Part shown: positions 37,272-46,730 of the stretch, piece by piece | Numbering within the stretch: position 1 is the stretch's first letter | Layout of the letters: each line of letters opens with the position of its first letter | Source: an uncultured Verrucomicrobiales bacterium | Lineage (GTDB): Bacteria; Verrucomicrobiota; Verrucomicrobiia; Verrucomicrobiales; Akkermansiaceae | Direction: 5' to 3' | Assembly: GCA_937951675.1 (NCBI GenBank) | Contig: CALFBI010000006.1 | Location: forward strand, 124,001-188,000 | Length of the DNA: 64,000 nt | The notes under the pieces: model-generated | The model's database searches: none | Seen by the model: only the letters and a program-made list of their open reading frames with translations | Told to the model about the DNA's origin: nothing | Position numbers and translations under genes: made by a program

Positions 37272-39029
37272 TTATCGGTTTCTTAAGAAAGGAGGGACAT
37301 CGAGATCATCGCCGTCCACAATATTAGGAGATCCCCCCGAAAATTTACCTTTTGGTCCTCCTTCGAGCTCCAATTCGCCTTGCGGGATCTTTTTTTCATC
37401 TCCTTCGGAGGGAAGAAGCTCTTGCTTGGAAGGAAGAGGTAAAGGGGCTTCCTTATCGCCAGCGACCTCATTCTCTACTTTTTCAAAACTCGGATCGTTT
37501 GGCTCCTCTGAATTTTCTGGCTCACTTTTCCCCTGAAACATCCCGAAAAAGCTCCCAATAGAGCTGGACGCTGCTTTTGAGGTTTCTGAACCCGGAGATT
37601 GAGTCTCTTCTTCTTCTTGAGCGGGATGGGCCGAAACCGTCACAGGAGTGGCTACTTCTTTCTCTGGCCCTTTTTCAAATGATTTCAGGTCTTTTTCCGA
37701 ACTCTTGGAACTCTCTAATTTTGCTACGTCCTCTTGAGTTGCTTCCCTTACCGGCTCAGACTTAAAGCTCTTTTCTTCAGGCTCTAAAATTTTAATCCCT
37801 TCTTCTTTTCCTTTTACCGTATCGTCACTCGAAAGAGACACAACTGAAGGAGCTTTCCCGGCAAAGAGTTCTTCTGAAGCTTCCGATGACAAAGGCTGTT
37901 TCTCAGCTGTTTGTTCCGTTTTAGGCTCAGGAGCTAACTCTAAAACCTTAGCTGGGGTCACGGAAGGAGTAATGGCGGGAATGGGTGAAGGCCCTCTATC
38001 TTCCTTTATACTAGCTGCCTTATGGGAAGTCGTTAATGAAGGTGACTCTTTAAGCAATTTAGACTCTGGAAGGGCGCTAATCAAAGTCACACTTAAAGAT
38101 TCTCCCATACTCTCATCAACAGCAGCTCCAAATAGAACATTACTTTCTGCGGCAAGATGTTTAGAGAGATCTCGCATTAGAAGCTCCACTTCATAAAGAG
38201 TTAAGTCATTTCCTCCACAAAGATGAACGAGCACCGTATCTGCATCGTTCAAAAGCTCTCCTTTATCAAGAAGCGGGCTAGAAAGAGCAGCGTGCATCGC
38301 CTTTTGCGCTCGATTTTCTCCAAAGGCGATTCCTGAACCAAATAGGCAGCGAGACTTACTCGTCTTCAGAGCCGCCATCAGTTCATCTAGCCCGACATTG
38401 ATCAAACCCGGACGAACTACGAGGCGCGTCACAGATTTAATACTTTCCGAAATCAGGTTATTTGTCGCTGCAAAGGCCTCATGAATTCCCTGCTTGGCTA
38501 AAACAAGTTGCCCCATTTTACCGTTTTCAAATGTGACGAGAGAGTTTGAAAGAACCGCTAATTCGTTCAAGGCAGCTTCAGCCTGCTGGCAACGACGATT
38601 TCCTTCAAAAACAAATGGCATCGTCGCAAAGACAACGACAAAAGCTCCCGCTTCTCGAGCGAGGCGAGCGACAAGAGGAGAAGCTCCTGATCCCGTCCCT
38701 CCTCCTAGGCCGACGCATAGAAAAATCATTTTACGATCCCGGAAAACATCTCTGATTTGGCTCTCTGCCTCCATGGCAGATTGTTTACCAAGTTCGGGAT
38801 CTCCCCCTGCGCCTAAACCTCTGAGTAAATCTTTCCCTAACTGGACTTTTTCAGAAGCAACACTTCCAGTTAAAGTTCTTACATCCGTGTGCAATGCTAC
38901 TAAATCAACTCCTTCCATTCCGTCTAAAGCGATCCGGTCGAGCATGTTCCCACCAGCACCTCCCAGGCCTACTACAAGAACAGAGGATTCAGGTATCGTT
39001 TGCTGAGGATTACGTGTAAATTCTATCAT
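37272..39029 (-). CDS. ftsZ: Cell division GTPase FtsZ, divergent with a long tail
   Basis: A 585-residue FtsZ, far longer than the usual ~380-400. The GTPase core spans about 15-320: VLVVGLGGAGGNM (18-30) and the tubulin signature GGGTGSG (109-115), with Ser where many FtsZ proteins have Thr. The T7 loop, normally NxDFAD, reads NVGLDE (211-216), so its first acidic residue is Gly and its second Glu. A low-complexity Glu/Ser/Pro-rich linker of ~240 residues follows, then the C-terminal peptide DDLDVPPFLRNR that anchors to FtsA. It is the last gene of the dcw cluster. Confidence 0.93.
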   Translation of the reverse strand: MIEFTRNPQQTIPESSVLVVGLGGAGGNMLDRIALDGMEGVDLVALHTDVRTLTGSVASEKVQLGKDLLRGLGAGGDPELGKQSAMEAESQIRDVFRDRKMIFLCVGLGGGTGSGASPLVARLAREAGAFVVVFATMPFVFEGNRRCQQAEAALNELAVLSNSLVTFENGKMGQLVLAKQGIHEAFAATNNLISESIKSVTRLVVRPGLINVGLDELMAALKTSKSRCLFGSGIAFGENRAQKAMHAALSSPLLDKGELLNDADTVLVHLCGGNDLTLYEVELLMRDLSKHLAAESNVLFGAAVDESMGESLSVTLISALPESKLLKESPSLTTSHKAASIKEDRGPSPIPAITPSVTPAKVLELAPEPKTEQTAEKQPLSSEASEELFAGKAPSVVSLSSDDTVKGKEEGIKILEPEEKSFKSEPVREATQEDVAKLESSKSSEKDLKSFEKGPEKEVATPVTVSAHPAQEEEETQSPGSETSKAASSSIGSFFGMFQGKSEPENSEEPNDPSFEKVENEVAGDKEAPLPLPSKQELLPSEGDEKKIPQGELELEGGPKGKFSGGSPNIVDGDDLDVPPFLRNR

Positions 39030-39046
39030 AATAAATCTTTATTAAA

Positions 39047-40255
39047 TTAACTATTAAAGGGCCAAATTTTCTTGAAAACACCTCCAATCCCTCCTCCTGA
39101 TGGGCGCTCTTCGTCTACGATTTGCGCATAGCGGATGAGGCCTAAAACAGTCGAATACTGAGGGTCTTTGAAATAAGCATGCACTCCAGAAAGCTCTGGC
39201 TTATCAGGTCGGTAAACAGGGAGATTGAAAACGCGGTTAGCAAGCTGCCCATACCCTTGTTGTAAACTGGCCCCACCGACGAGGAACACACCAGCTCCGA
39301 TTTTCTGGAAGCAATCTTGCGGGAGTTGTTTTTTCACTAATTCAAGAGTTTCCTGTAAGCGGTAACGGATAATCCCATTGAGAAGCTCTCTCTTCAAAGA
39401 CAAATCAGAAAACCCATTTTCATCCTGGATTCGAGCTTCACCAATCAATGTCTCAGGACTCCCGGAGGCGTCTCCCTCTAATACTTTAAAACGTTCTGCT
39501 TCAGAAAACGGGATATGTGTCACCAGATGAATATCATTAGTCACGTGATCTCCTCCGACCGGAACACAGCCTGAGGCCGCAATTGAACCTTCGAGATAGA
39601 GAACGTAATCAGTCGTGCCTCCTCCCATATCAATCACCAGAGACCCTTGCTCTTTACGTTCTCGGTTCAGCGCTATCTGAGCAGAAGCAATGGGAGAGAA
39701 TACAACATCATTCACATCGAGAGGAATTTCTCTGACGCATTTAATACTATTCTGAATCCTTGAACGAATCGCATGAATAATATGAAAATCTGCTTCTAAA
39801 GAACGCCCCATCAGTCCCGCCGGGCTAGTCTCATGGAGTTGGCCATCCACAAAATAATGCCTAATCAAGCTATGTAAAAAAACATGTTCGTTAGGGATAT
39901 TAATATCTCCTGCGATTTCTTTAACCTCTTCCACATCTTGATCATCGATCTGATCCTTGCGCTCTGGAATCCGGTAAGTGCCCCGATTATTAACCCCTTG
40001 AATATGAGACCCCGTAACAGCGAGAAAGACACTTCCAATATCAACATCACTCACTTCTTCTGCCTCAATTAAGGCCTCTTTCACACAGGCCCTTACCTGA
40101 GGGTAATCTGTAATCTCACCTTTTCTCACTCCAGCTGAACGGGTCTCCCCTAGCCCCAAAATTTTGACTGAACCATCTCCCTTCACTTCAGCAACCACCA
40201 TACAAGTTTTAGTGGTGCCAATTTCGAGACCTACGTGAATCTTACTGCGTGCCAT
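39047..40255 (-). CDS. ftsA: Cell division protein FtsA
   Basis: A 402-residue actin-like protein that anchors FtsZ to the membrane. ATP-binding motifs are visible: phosphate 1 GLEIGTTKTCMVV near the N-terminus, phosphate 2 DMGGGTTDYV in the middle, and adenosine GVFLVGGASLQQG. A C-terminal segment KKIWPF could be the membrane-targeting helix (VFKKIWPFNS). The ATG at 40255 lies seven bases after the ftsQ stop; a longer frame to 40369 overlaps ftsQ and is rejected. It is followed by ftsZ 17 bases later. Confidence 0.94.
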   Translation of the reverse strand: MARSKIHVGLEIGTTKTCMVVAEVKGDGSVKILGLGETRSAGVRKGEITDYPQVRACVKEALIEAEEVSDVDIGSVFLAVTGSHIQGVNNRGTYRIPERKDQIDDQDVEEVKEIAGDINIPNEHVFLHSLIRHYFVDGQLHETSPAGLMGRSLEADFHIIHAIRSRIQNSIKCVREIPLDVNDVVFSPIASAQIALNRERKEQGSLVIDMGGGTTDYVLYLEGSIAASGCVPVGGDHVTNDIHLVTHIPFSEAERFKVLEGDASGSPETLIGEARIQDENGFSDLSLKRELLNGIIRYRLQETLELVKKQLPQDCFQKIGAGVFLVGGASLQQGYGQLANRVFNLPVYRPDKPELSGVHAYFKDPQYSTVLGLIRYAQIVDEERPSGGGIGGVFKKIWPFNS

Positions 40256-40262
40256 CTTCTGT

Positions 40263-41252
40263 TTAACCTCGATTAAGGATTTCTTGAAGGTCGCGCTCTT
40301 GACGAGTCGGGCGACGTTTCGGACGAATGAGTTTAGGTTGCAAAGGTTTTGCCGCCTGATCATCAACAAAAGTCACGGGGATATTACGAAAGGGAATAAA
40401 GTTCGCACTTCGAATCTGAAGACCTTCTTTCTGAGCGTAATGTCTCAAACTCAGCATATCACGCAACTCGCGTTGATGATCATGCATCCCAAATACAAAT
40501 TCTAACCCATCTTCACAAAAAGCTCGCAAGGAGTAGGCATTAACCACTTCAACTCGAGAAATCTGCCACCCTGAATCCAAAGAATCGAGCGCATTAGCGG
40601 AAATGAGTAAGCTCAAAGCTCTCTCCAAATCTCCTAAAGGAAGCTTCTGCCCAGAAACCAAAGCCCCTTCTTCAATCTCTTCTACCGAAAGAACCGGAAG
40701 TCCCAAAGCAACCTCTCTCAGGTGTCGATGAGGACGGAATACATTGCGATTTTGATCAATTAATAAACCTCTATGCTCACCTTTTGCACGCACTCCTACT
40801 CCCGAACATTCGATCCAAGCTACTGGAATCATCTGCTGAATTTGGAACGCTATTGTCCCCGGTAACTTTCTTTCTACGGTAACCGAAATCACATCTGGCT
40901 CCTGCATCACTTTTTCCCTCATCTCCCTTAGAGAGACTTCGAAAATACTAAGTGAAGGATTAATCTGAGTAACGTCCTTGAGACGGGAATGGTCAAAAAA
41001 ACCGTTCGCCTCAAGGTCAATCGTTCGAATCTTAAAATCTGGATGATCTACAAGCGACTTCTGCAAGCCCCATCTCCCAGCCATCACCACTGTGGCTAAC
41101 ACCGCAAAGACTAATATCAAACGAAGTGCTTTCTCGCCTCGCTTCTGCCATCCCAACCAAAAAATACGAGATGACGACACACAAAGCTCATGCTTGAACA
41201 ACTTGTTCTGCATGGACTTAGATTGTGTTTTACGTCGTTTCGGCATCTTCAT
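40263..41252 (-). CDS. ftsQ: Cell division protein FtsQ
   Basis: A 329-residue bitopic protein: a long positively charged cytoplasmic N-terminus (about 45 residues), one membrane segment (LRLILVFAVLATVVMAG), then a POTRA domain (KIRTIDLEANGFFDHSRLKDV...) and the FtsQ beta domain. It links FtsL/FtsB to the ring. A Lys/Arg-rich C-terminal tail (PKLIRPKRRPTRQERD) is longer than usual. Low sequence conservation is normal; the position before ftsA supports the call. Confidence 0.85.
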   Translation of the reverse strand: MKMPKRRKTQSKSMQNKLFKHELCVSSSRIFWLGWQKRGEKALRLILVFAVLATVVMAGRWGLQKSLVDHPDFKIRTIDLEANGFFDHSRLKDVTQINPSLSIFEVSLREMREKVMQEPDVISVTVERKLPGTIAFQIQQMIPVAWIECSGVGVRAKGEHRGLLIDQNRNVFRPHRHLREVALGLPVLSVEEIEEGALVSGQKLPLGDLERALSLLISANALDSLDSGWQISRVEVVNAYSLRAFCEDGLEFVFGMHDHQRELRDMLSLRHYAQKEGLQIRSANFIPFRNIPVTFVDDQAAKPLQPKLIRPKRRPTRQERDLQEILNRG

Positions 41253-41262
41253 TATTTAAAGG

Positions 41263-42189
41263 TCATCCTCGTTTTTCTCCATAAGAAAGGTCGGCAATCA
41301 TCCGACACAGAGCACCAAACGGAATCCCTGCTTCAGCCGCAGATTTAGGTAATAGACTACTCGCTGTCATCCCAGGAATCGTATTCGCTTCTAGGACGTA
41401 AGGATTCCCATTCGAATCCAATAAGACATCAACACGCGCGTAAATCTCAATTCCAAGAGAACGATAGGCCTCTACTGCAGCCTTTTGAACCACCGCTGTT
41501 TCCTCCTTGGATAACTGAGCTGGGCAAAAATATTGAGTCGTAGGCTCTCCTCCGTAAAGTTGAGGGTATTTCGTTTTCATGTCATACCAACCTCCTTCCG
41601 GAATAATTTCGACGACCGGAAAAGCCTTCCCGTCAATCACAGCAACTGTCAGTTCCCGGCCCTCTACAAACTGCTCAACTAGAATCTCATCCCCATATCG
41701 AGCGGCCTCTTCTAATGCCGCCGGAGCTTCTTCTGCTGATTTGACGATTCTCACCCCTACGCTCGAGCCTTCACGTGGAGGTTTGACCACGAACGGAGGC
41801 TGAAAGCTTGGCTCAACCTTCTCTCCTAAAGTCGAAATGATTTCTGACTTGGGAGTTGGCACCCCCGCTTCCACAAAACGCTTCTTAGCTTCTACCTTGT
41901 CAAAAGCGAGCTCACTGCTCTTTGCTCCAGCCCCAGTGTAAGGAATTCCTTTGGCCTCTAAATATTGCTGCAGACCACCATCTTCCCCATAAGTGCCATG
42001 AATGACATTAAAGACGAGATCAGTCTTTTCCGGGATTTCTGGATCAACGGCATCTACCTCAAGACCATAAGCATTCAAGCCTTCCTCTTTTAAGGCTTCC
42101 AGCACTGCTCTTCCTGATGATAATGAGACATCACGTTCGCTCCCTGGGCCTCCCATGAGAACGGCAATATTTAATTGATCAATATTCAT
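41263..42189 (-). CDS. ddl: D-alanine-D-alanine ligase
   Basis: A 308-residue ATP-grasp ligase that makes D-Ala-D-Ala for the peptidoglycan stem. The opening VLMGGPGSERDVSLSSG binds the first D-Ala. HGTYGEDGGLQQYLEAKGIPYTG, KPPREGSSVGV and the C-terminal EANTIPGMTASSLLPKSA are family motifs. The start at 42189 is four bases after the murC-murB stop. It belongs to the dcw cluster between murC-murB and ftsQ. Chlamydiae fuse Ddl to MurC, whereas here the two are separate. Confidence 0.95.
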   Translation of the reverse strand: MNIDQLNIAVLMGGPGSERDVSLSSGRAVLEALKEEGLNAYGLEVDAVDPEIPEKTDLVFNVIHGTYGEDGGLQQYLEAKGIPYTGAGAKSSELAFDKVEAKKRFVEAGVPTPKSEIISTLGEKVEPSFQPPFVVKPPREGSSVGVRIVKSAEEAPAALEEAARYGDEILVEQFVEGRELTVAVIDGKAFPVVEIIPEGGWYDMKTKYPQLYGGEPTTQYFCPAQLSKEETAVVQKAAVEAYRSLGIEIYARVDVLLDSNGNPYVLEANTIPGMTASSLLPKSAAEAGIPFGALCRMIADLSYGEKRG

Positions 42190-42193
42190 TAGC

Positions 42194-44491
42194 TTAAAAA
42201 GTAATCTCGTCTTCTCCAATAATTTGAACCTCTGTTTCTAGTGTCACTCCTCGATGAACCTGAGAAGATTCTTTGATTTTTTCGATCAGGCTCAGAACTT
42301 CCGAAGCGGTCGCCTTACCTCGATTGACGATGAAATTCCCATGTTCGAGCGACACTTCTGCCTTCCCAACAGCTGAACCTTTCAAACCCATTTCATCGAT
42401 TAGCTTCCCGGCTCCTGTCGACTCGGGATTTTTAAAAATACAGCCTGCGCTTGCTGCGATCGGCTGACTTGTGCGACGCTTCTGACGAGAAGCTTCTAGT
42501 TTATTTTTAATTTCTTCACTCGAAGCAAAATGACCTTTGAAACAAGCCTTGAGCACAAATTGAGCCTGCAAAGATGGCACATGTCTGTAGTAATAAGGGA
42601 TTTCATCTTTCGATTTAGTGACGATCTCACCAGCCTCGTCGAGAACTGTAACTGATAACACTTGATCAAAAGTCTCTACCCCCATCGCGCCGGCATTCAT
42701 ACGCAAGCCTCCGCCGACATTCCCGGGAATTCCTTCCATCCATTCGAAACCACCAATTCCGGCGGCCTGAGCCATACTCGCTAGTTTTTTAAAGCGAACT
42801 CCTGCTCCAGCAGTAATCGTCTCTCCTTCAACCTTCACCTCATTGAATTCACCTCCCTTGGGGTGGATCACAAAGCCGCGAATCCCTCCATCTCTAATCA
42901 ACAGATTAGACCCTCGGCCTAAAACTCTTACTGGGAGCCCTCTTGCATAACTGAACTCAACAACTTTTGCAAAAGCCTCAAATGTTTTTGGCTCTGACCA
43001 GAACTGCGCTGGCCCACCCACTAGCATCGTGCAATGACGCCTCATCGGTTCATAAAGAGAAACCGAGCAATCTTCACTTCCCGTGAACTGTTTTAATTCC
43101 GTAACAACTGTTTGGTCTCGTGCGATCTTTGCTCCAGCTTCATGAACATTCCCAGCACCAAGAGTTAGAAAAAGATCCCCTTCCTCTAACTGATTACCTA
43201 CAACGTAATGTGCCGATTTCAGAGTGGGCACGGACACGGCTTTAGTGTCGCCATGTCGCTCAATAGCGTCGACAATAGTTTGCCCTGAGACCCCCTCTAT
43301 TGCTTGTTCACTTGCGGCATAAACATCTGTCACATAAACCACATCAGCCCCTTGAAATGATTTCCCAAAATCGTCAGCTAAGAGCTGCGTGCGAGAATAC
43401 CGATGAGGTTGAAAAAGAACCACCAATCGATTCGGCTGAAGACTTCGAGCTGTTTGTAATGTCGCTGCGACTTCAGTAGGGTGATGCCCATAGTCATCAA
43501 TAATTCTCAAATGATTGGAGAGATACTTCGTTTCAAAGCGACGACGTGCTCCCGCAAAAGACGACATGGCATTAGCAATCATCGCAAACGGCACCCCTAC
43601 ATCATCAGCTAATGCGATCGCGGCAAGTGCATTTAAAACATTGTGCCGACCTGGAATACCAAGCTCAATTCGGCCTAGAGGCTTCCCTGCTTTTAACACC
43701 GTAAAAGTGGTCACCCCTCTTCCTTCGGCGAGGTCTGAGGCCGTATAGTCAGCAGCATCCCATCCATAGGAAATAGCACGGTCCTGATTCTCACAAAGTG
43801 TCCGAGTCTCTTCGTCAGAGGCGCAGTAAATTATTTTTTGAGACGTTTGATCCAAAAGGGTCTGAAAGACTTCCTTCACATGGTCAAGGTCTCGATAAAA
43901 ATCGAGATGTTCTGCCTCTACATTTAAAACAATCGAATAAGCAGGCTTATAAAGAGCGAGTGTCCCATCACTTTCGTCCCCTTCTGCCACCATTAATTCC
44001 CCTTTTTCATCCCAATGTGCATTAGCACCAAGGATTGGAATCTCTGCACCTACATAATGAGAAGGGTGAGTAGAGCCACGTCGTAAGACATGAGCACACA
44101 TCGCAGAAGTCGTAGTCTTCCCATGAGTTCCTGAAACGACAACTCCCTTCTTCGCGTGCAAAATAGCAGCAAGACACTCTGCGCGACGAATACAAGAAAC
44201 ACCAAGGCGGCGAGCCTCTGCCAAGGCTACATTTTCGGCTCTGATTGCAGAAGAATAAACGACAACATCAGCATCTTGCACTGACTCGGCCGTATGAGGA
44301 GAGTGAAATTCCAGCCCTAATGTTTGCATGCGTTGAGTCTCTCCACTAGTCACTCGGTCACACCCGCTGACACGGTGGCCCATCCCTAGTAATAACAAGG
44401 CCAACCCGCTCATTCCAGAGCCTGCAACTCCGATCAAGTGAACTCGAACTGGCTTGGATCGATCAAGAAGGCGGTAAGAAAAATCTTTCAT
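42194..44491 (-). CDS. MurC-MurB fusion: UDP-MurNAc-L-alanine ligase and UDP-MurNAc dehydrogenase
   Basis: A 765-residue fusion of two enzymes of the UDP-MurNAc-peptide pathway. Residues 1-~462 are MurC: HLIGVAGSGMSGLA, the ATP loop GTHGKTTT (121-128) and HHPTEVAATL. From about 480 they are MurB: FAD motifs GRGSNLLI (525-532), IPGNVGGGLRMNAGA (588-602), the proton-donor position Cys684 in AGCIFKNP (Ser in E. coli MurB) and Glu753 near the end. MurB reduces UDP-GlcNAc-enolpyruvate to UDP-MurNAc, the next substrate of MurC, so consecutive steps are fused in reversed order. ATGA overlap with murG; GAGGGGG lies upstream. Confidence 0.95.
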   Translation of the reverse strand: MKDFSYRLLDRSKPVRVHLIGVAGSGMSGLALLLLGMGHRVSGCDRVTSGETQRMQTLGLEFHSPHTAESVQDADVVVYSSAIRAENVALAEARRLGVSCIRRAECLAAILHAKKGVVVSGTHGKTTTSAMCAHVLRRGSTHPSHYVGAEIPILGANAHWDEKGELMVAEGDESDGTLALYKPAYSIVLNVEAEHLDFYRDLDHVKEVFQTLLDQTSQKIIYCASDEETRTLCENQDRAISYGWDAADYTASDLAEGRGVTTFTVLKAGKPLGRIELGIPGRHNVLNALAAIALADDVGVPFAMIANAMSSFAGARRRFETKYLSNHLRIIDDYGHHPTEVAATLQTARSLQPNRLVVLFQPHRYSRTQLLADDFGKSFQGADVVYVTDVYAASEQAIEGVSGQTIVDAIERHGDTKAVSVPTLKSAHYVVGNQLEEGDLFLTLGAGNVHEAGAKIARDQTVVTELKQFTGSEDCSVSLYEPMRRHCTMLVGGPAQFWSEPKTFEAFAKVVEFSYARGLPVRVLGRGSNLLIRDGGIRGFVIHPKGGEFNEVKVEGETITAGAGVRFKKLASMAQAAGIGGFEWMEGIPGNVGGGLRMNAGAMGVETFDQVLSVTVLDEAGEIVTKSKDEIPYYYRHVPSLQAQFVLKACFKGHFASSEEIKNKLEASRQKRRTSQPIAASAGCIFKNPESTGAGKLIDEMGLKGSAVGKAEVSLEHGNFIVNRGKATASEVLSLIEKIKESSQVHRGVTLETEVQIIGEDEITF

Positions 44492-45591
44492 GATAACATT
44501 TCCCCCTCTGTCACTATTTCTGCAATTCGGCTCGCGGCTTGTGGCGAAGCCATCGCGAGAGCTTTCTCTGACATTTCTTTCCGAAGTTCATATGAGTTAA
44601 TAAACGAACGAACGAAATCGATGAGCTTCTCTCCACTTAATTCTGCCTCAGACGCCATGATCGCAGCCCCCCCCTTCTCAAAAACCTCCGCATTCTTCGT
44701 CTGATGATCATCAGCCGCATGTGGGTATGGAACGAGAACAGAAGGAATTCCTAAGTAAGACAATTCTGTCAAGCTCGATGCTCCAGAACGGCAAACAGCC
44801 AGATCCGTGCAAGCATAGGCCGCCGGCATTTGGTCGCAAAAAGCCAACGTCTGGTGGTGGCTTAAGCCCTTCGATAGTTCCTCCACTCTCTCAAAATCAA
44901 ACATCCCCGTGATGTGTAACCATTGCACTACCCCTCCTAATTGCTCTGAAGCTTCCACTACAAAAGTATTTAATTGGCGTGCGCCCTGACTTCCTCCCAC
45001 TACCAAAACAATGGGCCGATGAGGGTCTAAGCCAAATTGGGCCGCTGCCGTTTCTCTATCCGGCAAATTTTGCATCTCCTTTCGCACGGGAGTCCCCGTG
45101 ATGACCACTTCTGCATTGGGAAAATAACGCTTTGCTTCTCCGAGTCCTAATAGAACTTTCGAACAATGCTTACTCGTCATCAAATTTGAACGACCAGGAA
45201 TGGCATTTGAATCATGCACATAAGTGCGCAAACCTAACTTCTTCCCTGCTACAATCGGAGGGAAAGAGGTGAACCCTCCCATTCCTAAAACGACATCTAC
45301 CTGGTGCTTCTTGAGGAGTGATTTGCAAGTTCCTATGGTCTTAAAAAGGCGTCCCAAAAAAGGAAACATTTTGAATGATAAAGTCGGCGGCTTTGCGATC
45401 GCTGGTATTTTAACGAAATCCAGGTGCTCGTATTTTTTAGAGGCTTTCTCATCGACTTTTTTTTCAGAAATCAAAAGACGAACTTGGTGCCCTTTAGAGA
45501 GGAGTTCTTCTGCCACTGCGATCCCAGGAAAGAGATGACCACCAGTGCCACCGCAAGCAATTAAAATACTAAGAGGTTGAGATTGATTCAC
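44488..45591 (-). CDS. murG: UDP-GlcNAc:undecaprenyl-PP-MurNAc-pentapeptide transferase MurG
   Basis: A 367-residue GT-B glycosyltransferase that converts lipid I to lipid II at the inner face of the membrane. The glycine-rich loop CGGTGGHLFPGIAVAEEL opens the protein, and the second domain has GGSQGARQLN and CRSGASSLTE. It starts at a GTG that overlaps the ftsW stop as GTGA, and ends in an ATGA overlap with murC-murB. Confidence 0.95.
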   Translation of the reverse strand: MNQSQPLSILIACGGTGGHLFPGIAVAEELLSKGHQVRLLISEKKVDEKASKKYEHLDFVKIPAIAKPPTLSFKMFPFLGRLFKTIGTCKSLLKKHQVDVVLGMGGFTSFPPIVAGKKLGLRTYVHDSNAIPGRSNLMTSKHCSKVLLGLGEAKRYFPNAEVVITGTPVRKEMQNLPDRETAAAQFGLDPHRPIVLVVGGSQGARQLNTFVVEASEQLGGVVQWLHITGMFDFERVEELSKGLSHHQTLAFCDQMPAAYACTDLAVCRSGASSLTELSYLGIPSVLVPYPHAADDHQTKNAEVFEKGGAAIMASEAELSGEKLIDFVRSFINSYELRKEMSEKALAMASPQAASRIAEIVTEGEMLS

Positions 45592-46730
45592 AGCTTAATG
45601 GGGATTTTTTGATCTTTAATAGTAGGAACAACAGACTTCATCTGGTGCACAGACTGACGATGGATACTGACGAGCAAGCCAATTGCAGCAAGAGTAAAGA
45701 CTAAATTAGAGCCTCCATAACTTAAGAAAGGAAGAGGAAGTCCAGTATTGGGAAGCATCCCGGTCGTCACTCCCATATTCATCATCGCAGGAACAAGAAT
45801 GATCGCCGTCAACCCAAACCCGAAGAGCTTTCCAAAATGATCAGGAGCATTCAAAGCAATACTAATTCCGCTCACTGCAATCATGACAAAGCAAAACACA
45901 ATCAGCAACGTCCCCATTAAACCAAGTTCTTCACCAATCATTGCGAAAATAAAATCAGTATGAGCAAACGGAAGATAACCATGTTTCTCGGAACCATTCC
46001 CCAAACCCAAGCCGCTCACTCCACCTGACCCAAAAGCTAAGCGAGCTCGCCATTGCTGTAAGCCATAGCTTAACCGGCTTTCTTCAAGATCTATGAAAGC
46101 CATAATCCGCGCCCACCGGTTTGCATTCGAATATACGACATAGGTCAGAGCACAAAACGCCAATAAGGTCGAGGGAGCTAGGTAGCGGAGACGGGTCCCT
46201 GCTACGAACAGCATCAACAATCCAGCCCCCCCTATGGCGGCCGCAGTGCCCATATCTTTCTCGAAAAAGATCAGCAAGGTTGGAATGCCTAGTATACAGC
46301 CGGGAATCACAAAACCTTTCCAAAACCGAGTCACCTCACTACGGAATTTTGACAACCAAAACGCCAATGCCATCATCACTGCGATCTTGGCGGGCTCCGA
46401 AGGCTGAACTTGCCCTAGACCTGGAAATTTAATCCAACGAGTTTCCCCATTACGCTCCAAACCAATCCCAGGAACGTAGCAAAGAAGAAGTAAAAAGCAG
46501 GCTCCCGCTAAAATAAACCAAATGAAAGGCGACAACCGTCGATAGTCTTGCGAAGCACAGAAAGCGGCGACCCCCACCCCCACTACAATCCAAATTGATT
46601 GCCTCTTTACATGGTGGTATAGCTCCGAGTCAGATTCCACCCATACACTTGTGCTCGCGAGCATCACCATCCCCAAGACGACAAGGATCGCTACCGAAAC
46701 GCATAAAAAGATGGTGTTTTTTTGCCCCAT
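45588..46730 (-). CDS. ftsW: SEDS-family glycosyltransferase FtsW
   Basis: A 380-residue, ten-segment membrane protein of the SEDS family, which polymerises septal lipid II with FtsI. QPSEPAKIAVMMALAF, KDMGTAAAIGGAGLLMLFVAG, HTDFIFAMIGEELGLMG and the C-terminal TGLPLPFLSYGGSNLVF are signatures. It lies 35 bases after the LysM gene and overlaps murG. The same family includes RodA, but the dcw location decides FtsW. Confidence 0.94.
   Translation of the reverse strand: MGQKNTIFLCVSVAILVVLGMVMLASTSVWVESDSELYHHVKRQSIWIVVGVGVAAFCASQDYRRLSPFIWFILAGACFLLLLCYVPGIGLERNGETRWIKFPGLGQVQPSEPAKIAVMMALAFWLSKFRSEVTRFWKGFVIPGCILGIPTLLIFFEKDMGTAAAIGGAGLLMLFVAGTRLRYLAPSTLLAFCALTYVVYSNANRWARIMAFIDLEESRLSYGLQQWRARLAFGSGGVSGLGLGNGSEKHGYLPFAHTDFIFAMIGEELGLMGTLLIVFCFVMIAVSGISIALNAPDHFGKLFGFGLTAIILVPAMMNMGVTTGMLPNTGLPLPFLSYGGSNLVFTLAAIGLLVSIHRQSVHQMKSVVPTIKDQKIPIKL

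Follow-up and report, generated by a model that had tools for sequence, protein, structure and literature searches.

An altered T7 loop in a verrucomicrobial FtsZ and a putative one-acid, arginine-assisted GTPase site

The window analyzed here, a 64,000-nucleotide stretch from the genome of an uncultured Verrucomicrobiales bacterium, holds an intact dcw cluster in which ftsZ is placed after ftsQ–ftsA (Table 1). V. spinosum is described as having the same murC–murB fusion (PMC12283558). The mechanically called ftsA reading frame (39047–40369, minus strand, called from 40369) overlaps ftsQ, and the ATG at 40255 (MARSKIHVGLEIG) is the likelier true start.

Table 1. Genes of the cluster and FtsZ features in the window.
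Feature	Position	Strand	Basis or remark
ftsZ	37272..39029	-	585 aa; sole FtsZ/tubulin-family gene of the genome
FtsA-binding C-terminal peptide GDDLDVPPFLRNR	37275..37313	-	Resembles B. subtilis DDTLDIPTFLRNR and relatives' tails
C-terminal linker, ~245 residues	37314..38054	-	Composition: Glu/Ser/Lys/Pro-rich
T7/synergy loop to H8 start, NVGLDE	38382..38399	-	Residues 211–216
Arg146	38592..38594	-	Equivalent of S. aureus Arg143 (arginine-finger-like), retained
Tubulin signature GGGTGSG	38685..38705	-	Residues 109–115
Arg51	38877..38879	-	H2 residue; equivalent of E. coli Gln47 / S. aureus Gln48
ftsA	39047..40255	-	TIGR01174, E=2.3e-95; match begins at residue 46 of the longer reading frame
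ftsQ	40263..41252	-	POTRA_1, E=1e-07
ddl	41263..42219	-	ORF; own reading of the sequence
murC–murB fusion	42194..44491	-	ORF; own reading of the sequence
murG	44488..45591	-	ORF; own reading of the sequence
ftsW	45588..46730	-	ORF; own reading of the sequence

The ftsZ product matches both the GTPase domain (PF00091, E=9.5e-34) and the FtsZ C-terminal domain (PF12327, E=7.9e-20) above cut-off. Its TIGR00065 score, 267 bits, falls below the curated NCBIfam equivalog cut-off of 295.2, but among 115 genomes of the phylum just 11 reach that value; as the cut-off fails almost the entire phylum, we did not take it as defining FtsZ here. An AlphaFold2 model (pLDDT 92) has the FtsZ fold, and the 50 Foldseek matches listed for it are all FtsZ (TM ~0.77–0.82 for nearly all), the best among those listed being 1rlu (E=2.3e-37). 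The FtsZ_C domain and these structural matches rule out identity as a tubulin (BtubA/B). The initial annotation had proposed looking for a second ftsZ; a PF00091 profile search across the genome (2.05 Mb, 97% complete, 28 contigs) returned one match, the window gene, and no second copy. One genome scan with the single protein as query gave no match. The Ser that the same annotation singled out in GGGTGSG is indeed present, and it is the usual residue among Verrucomicrobiales FtsZ, at a position where the tubulin signature permits Ser and where BtubA/B and eukaryotic tubulins carry it as well.

In canonical FtsZ, two aspartates of the T7 loop and helix H8 (D209 and D212 of E. coli, whose numbering we use for aligned positions) hold and activate the water that attacks the GTP of the next subunit. 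The window protein is a member of the FtsZ family outside the subset with this canonical site: where E. coli has NVDFAD it reads NVGLDE, with D209 replaced by G213, F210 by L214, A211 by D215 and D212 by E216, and the two-aspartate pattern NxDxxD is absent, Gly and Glu standing at 209 and 212. The initial annotation had read both acid changes from an alignment by eye, and they are borne out by a gapless alignment and the structural model. Specifically, phmmer places PGLINVGLDEL over the PGLINLDFADV of B. subtilis FtsZ without a gap (a one-residue length difference comes later, in the H8–S7 turn); in the AlphaFold2 model H7 ends at residue 205 and H8 begins at 214, the F210 equivalent, as expected if G213 occupies the D209 position; and the intermediate loops of relatives (NLDFSD, RIGFDD, NVGLDD) match the window loop column by column. 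A shifted T7 register is ruled out by these observations. That the altered acids complete the GTPase site of the next subunit, as the annotation also stated, agrees with published work (PMC8936486, PMC6528577), while the new Asp at 211 (D215) had escaped it. Set beside the S. aureus and E. coli proteins (PMC8936486), the window FtsZ shares the fold, the GTP pocket, the equivalents of D46 and R143 and the T7 Asn; the S. aureus set D46, Q48, R143, N208, D210 and D213 reads D, R, R, N, G and E, such that D210, D213 and the Q48 that caps a K+ give way to Gly, Glu and Arg, with an extra Asp at 211.

This loop is widespread. Among 60 sampled Verrucomicrobiales FtsZ, position 209 is Gly in 58 and Glu in 2, position 212 is Asp in 44, Glu in 14 and Gln in 2, and position 211 is Asp in 55; the alignment with Verrucomicrobiota FtsZ that the initial annotation had suggested as a check thus finds G209 with an acid at 212 in 58 of the 60. 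The altered T7 loop is, on this alignment, an order-wide trait and not a defect of one gene, and the choice of Glu or Asp at 212, which varies inside families, is minor. Most relatives sampled are metagenome assemblies, with order and family names inferred, and isolates are also represented: Luteolibacter pohnpeiensis has NVGLDD, and Verrucomicrobium sp. BvORR034 (L204, the same contig as L049) has RMGIAD, i.e., G209 and D212. Chance does not account for NVGLDE, as this loop is found again and again across the order. A sequencing or alignment artefact could be suspected in a 28-contig assembly, yet the recurrence of the loop in dozens of independent genomes, these isolates included, has already refuted it and leaves it practically no probability.

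Chthoniobacterales/Spartobacteria, a second order of the class, mostly carry GFDD or GLDE loops, with some Thr or Ser at 209. When the T7 columns were left out of the FtsZ tree, both orders grouped with one additional sequence in a single clade (support 0.98), which dates the loss of D209 to their common ancestor, with the acid at 211 probably equally old. The mirror image is seen in f7 and f9, two families of this class that are probably Opitutales: one aspartate is again missing in all sampled members, but here D209 is kept, 212 is Thr, Ser, Ala or Gly, and Gln47 is mostly retained.

One reading of the new Asp at 211 is that it takes over the job of D209, leaving a site with two acids (D215 and E216) and a mechanism little changed. 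The two residues are adjacent in the model, as the second and third of H8, and in the set of 176 FtsZ compared below an acid stands at 211 in 73 of 99 sequences without an acid at 209, compared with 7 of 77 that have one. Yet relatives with G209 or T209 and D212 can do without it (RMGLAD, RMGIAD and RLGLSD in Verrucomicrobiaceae; QTTLGD and RVTTAD), and an Asp by the helix start could merely substitute for D209 as a helix cap, which makes this reading unlikely. The initial annotation had named a neighbouring Asp doing the work as the result that would overturn its interpretation; such an Asp does exist, but an acid at 211 is not obligatory, because relatives have Ala, Ser, Gly or Thr there.

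Published work describes the two T7 aspartates as conserved between species and reports that model FtsZ proteins need each of them to assemble or to hydrolyze GTP (PMC8936486, PMC6528577, PMC8142252); our own sampling lies within the phylum (plus E. coli), and their conservation in other phyla rests on these papers. We compared 176 FtsZ, that of E. coli and 175 representing 55 families within the phylum, a set from which six sequences with uncertain T7 alignment were left out. An acid occurs only at 212 in 98 sequences, only at 209 in 50, at both positions in 27 and at neither in 1, and parsimony requires at least 10 changes at 209 and at least 12 at 212 on the tree. A model in which the losses depend on one another was preferred over independent loss (LR 25.7, root fixed at DD); in 80 parametric bootstraps under independence with similar loss counts the largest LR was 12.2, and the probability of at most one sequence with neither acid was 0.025, a value that is approximate given a rough optimiser and a single gene tree. 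These bootstraps, conditioned on similar numbers of losses, replaced a first unconditioned simulation (P = 0.29), which was uninformative, losses being few in many of its trees. The two Verrucomicrobiales sequences with Q212 are exactly the two with E209 (L050 of family f2, RLELAQ; L055 of family f1, SIEVIQ); they come from two different families, represent two independent swaps and are the clearest support for the one-acid pattern. Nearly every species of the phylum retains one acid or both, a pattern suggesting that a functional GTPase site can be built on one.

The same pattern bears on whether these proteins hydrolyze GTP at all. FtsZ here might be mainly a static scaffold, with a nearly dead GTPase and a very low hydrolysis rate relative to the typical turnover of ~3 GTP/min per FtsZ (PMC6528577). 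Mutations of the canonical acids are severe—D210N and D213N each abolish assembly of S. aureus FtsZ (PMC8936486), and E. coli D212A retains 7% activity (PMC8142252)—and one of the two acids is lost in most verrucomicrobial FtsZ. However, dispensable hydrolysis predicts frequent loss of the second acid, which is seen in 1 of 176 sequences, two lineages having swapped acids instead, and Verrucomicrobiales retain the counterpart of R143 as well as the motifs of the GTP pocket. We regard a static scaffold as improbable. The initial annotation had also raised milder effects. D210 of S. aureus, the D209 equivalent, swings to place the water (PMC8936486); an enzyme that lacks it could be slow or work differently, and the window FtsZ may show slower GTP hydrolysis or changed dynamics.

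Several divergent proteins turned up in the survey. L055, from a small, 69% complete genome (G003, genus g4), encodes a highly divergent FtsZ with an intact GGGTGSG and the T7 loop SIEVIQ. In family f8, three genomes (G064, G097 and G126) have FtsZ-like proteins (L144–L146) whose E-values are no better than 1e-17 to 1e-20 and in which the T4 and T7 motifs are altered and the T7 alignment is unreliable. Family f3 is represented by five genomes, and three of these (G054, G051 and G045) encode a second, weak PF00091 protein (L056, L057 and L058; 49–78 bits), in which a simple pattern search found no standard form of a GGGTGSG-type motif.

Within the family of the window organism, FtsZ was sought in two genomes of genus g5 (G004 and G016; 1.5–1.6 Mb, both 90% complete), and none was detectable. 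Downstream of ftsA, G004 instead has an 852-aa reading frame without the tubulin signature (L291:321–2879, minus strand), with a partial counterpart at the same place in G016 (L292:1–1191, minus strand; 79% identical over 300 aa). The first 300 residues of these products can be aligned to FtsZ over their full length, DLNAIWASDV taking the place of GLGGGTGSGA; the helix and strand order is that of FtsZ; and the FtsA-peptide-like tail, whole in G004 alone (GEDLNTPAYARRK), is similar to that of the family (GEDLDIPPYLRKR). Similarity scores are weak, both to FtsZ by hhalign (E 0.06, probability 0.9%) and to the divergent L055 protein by BLASTP (E 0.022), and AlphaFold gives a poor model (pLDDT 46), though one with FtsZ structures frequent among its Foldseek matches. 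The g5 protein is possibly an FtsZ descendant that lost its GTP site, and the L055 FtsZ a possible intermediate toward it. Such a protein at the ftsZ locus, together with the place of the phylum's FtsZ among the most divergent (PMC9871819), might suggest relaxed selection on FtsZ in a lineage heading toward its loss; for the window FtsZ, however, which shares up to 73% core identity with relatives, has its other motifs intact and is the only copy, decay is very improbable.

A second change accompanies the loop. In S. aureus, Gln48 of the neighbouring subunit caps the T7-loop K+, and Q48A lowers GTPase activity (PMC8936486). The equivalent residue, position 47, is Arg in all Verrucomicrobiales read there, the one exception being a Gly in the genome with RLELAQ (L055 is truncated at this point). 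Most Chthoniobacterales keep Gln47 despite sharing the G209 loop, and hence Arg arose after the loss of D209. We rejected the idea that loss of D209 is always accompanied by a basic residue at 47 or 207: one occurs in 77 of 99 sequences without an acid at 209, against 24 of 77 that have one, and given numerous exceptions and ~26 changes along the tree we claim only the order-wide Arg47. A role for this residue in place of K+ draws on one order-level co-change and one reversal, with Chthoniobacterales having G209 without Arg47; that Arg51 of the window protein stands in for K+ is thus put forward as a conjecture.

Among known systems, the Prosthecobacter-type bacterial tubulin (NTDLSE) has, like the window FtsZ, Glu at 212, the position of E254 in alpha-tubulin. 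Tubulins differ in keeping the Asp at 209 and form a separate subfamily; the resemblance is either convergent or due to chance. The FtsZ of V. spinosum (VerFtsZ) resembles that of the window in order, dcw position, the Ser of GGGTGSG and a long C-terminal extension, and is described as divergent at eight otherwise fully conserved positions (PMC1845146). For the T7 loop of this genus, the sequence read here is that of a congener (RMGIAD). The two V. spinosum papers, in the portions available to us, describe a canonical role with a divergent sequence and, figures aside, leave the T7 aspartates unmentioned in their text (PMC1845146, PMC12283558); priority for the verrucomicrobial T7 change is uncertain.

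Taken together, we think it probable that the window encodes an active FtsZ with a one-acid, arginine-assisted site that was rebuilt, and not broken, in the ancestor of the order. The protein would be the organism's working and probably division-essential FtsZ. With D209 lost, the acid retained at 212 (Glu216) would most likely position the water and so be the catalytic acid for GTP hydrolysis, while the new Asp at 211 and Arg51 from the neighbouring subunit may rebuild the T7–H2 contact, perhaps in place of K+. The initial annotation had also entertained loss of activity; against this stand a sole FtsZ, an intact dcw cluster, an FtsA-binding tail and a loop ancestral to an order in which ftsZ is essential and division canonical in one species examined, V. 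spinosum (PMC12283558). A search of the literature available to us found no assay of any verrucomicrobial FtsZ and no D212E mutant.

More tentatively, and with less confidence than for the window protein, the phylum may have repeatedly cut the two-aspartate site down to a single acid, be it the one at 209 or the one at 212, while Verrucomicrobiales may also have swapped the K+-capping Gln for an Arg from the partner subunit, giving K+-independent, arginine-assisted FtsZ dynamics of a kind undescribed for any FtsZ. A phylum with one aspartate in most lineages amounts to a natural mutagenesis experiment on GTP hydrolysis by FtsZ, and the pattern opens direct tests of which acid is the catalytic one, of whether a single acid is enough and of whether arginine can take the place of K+.
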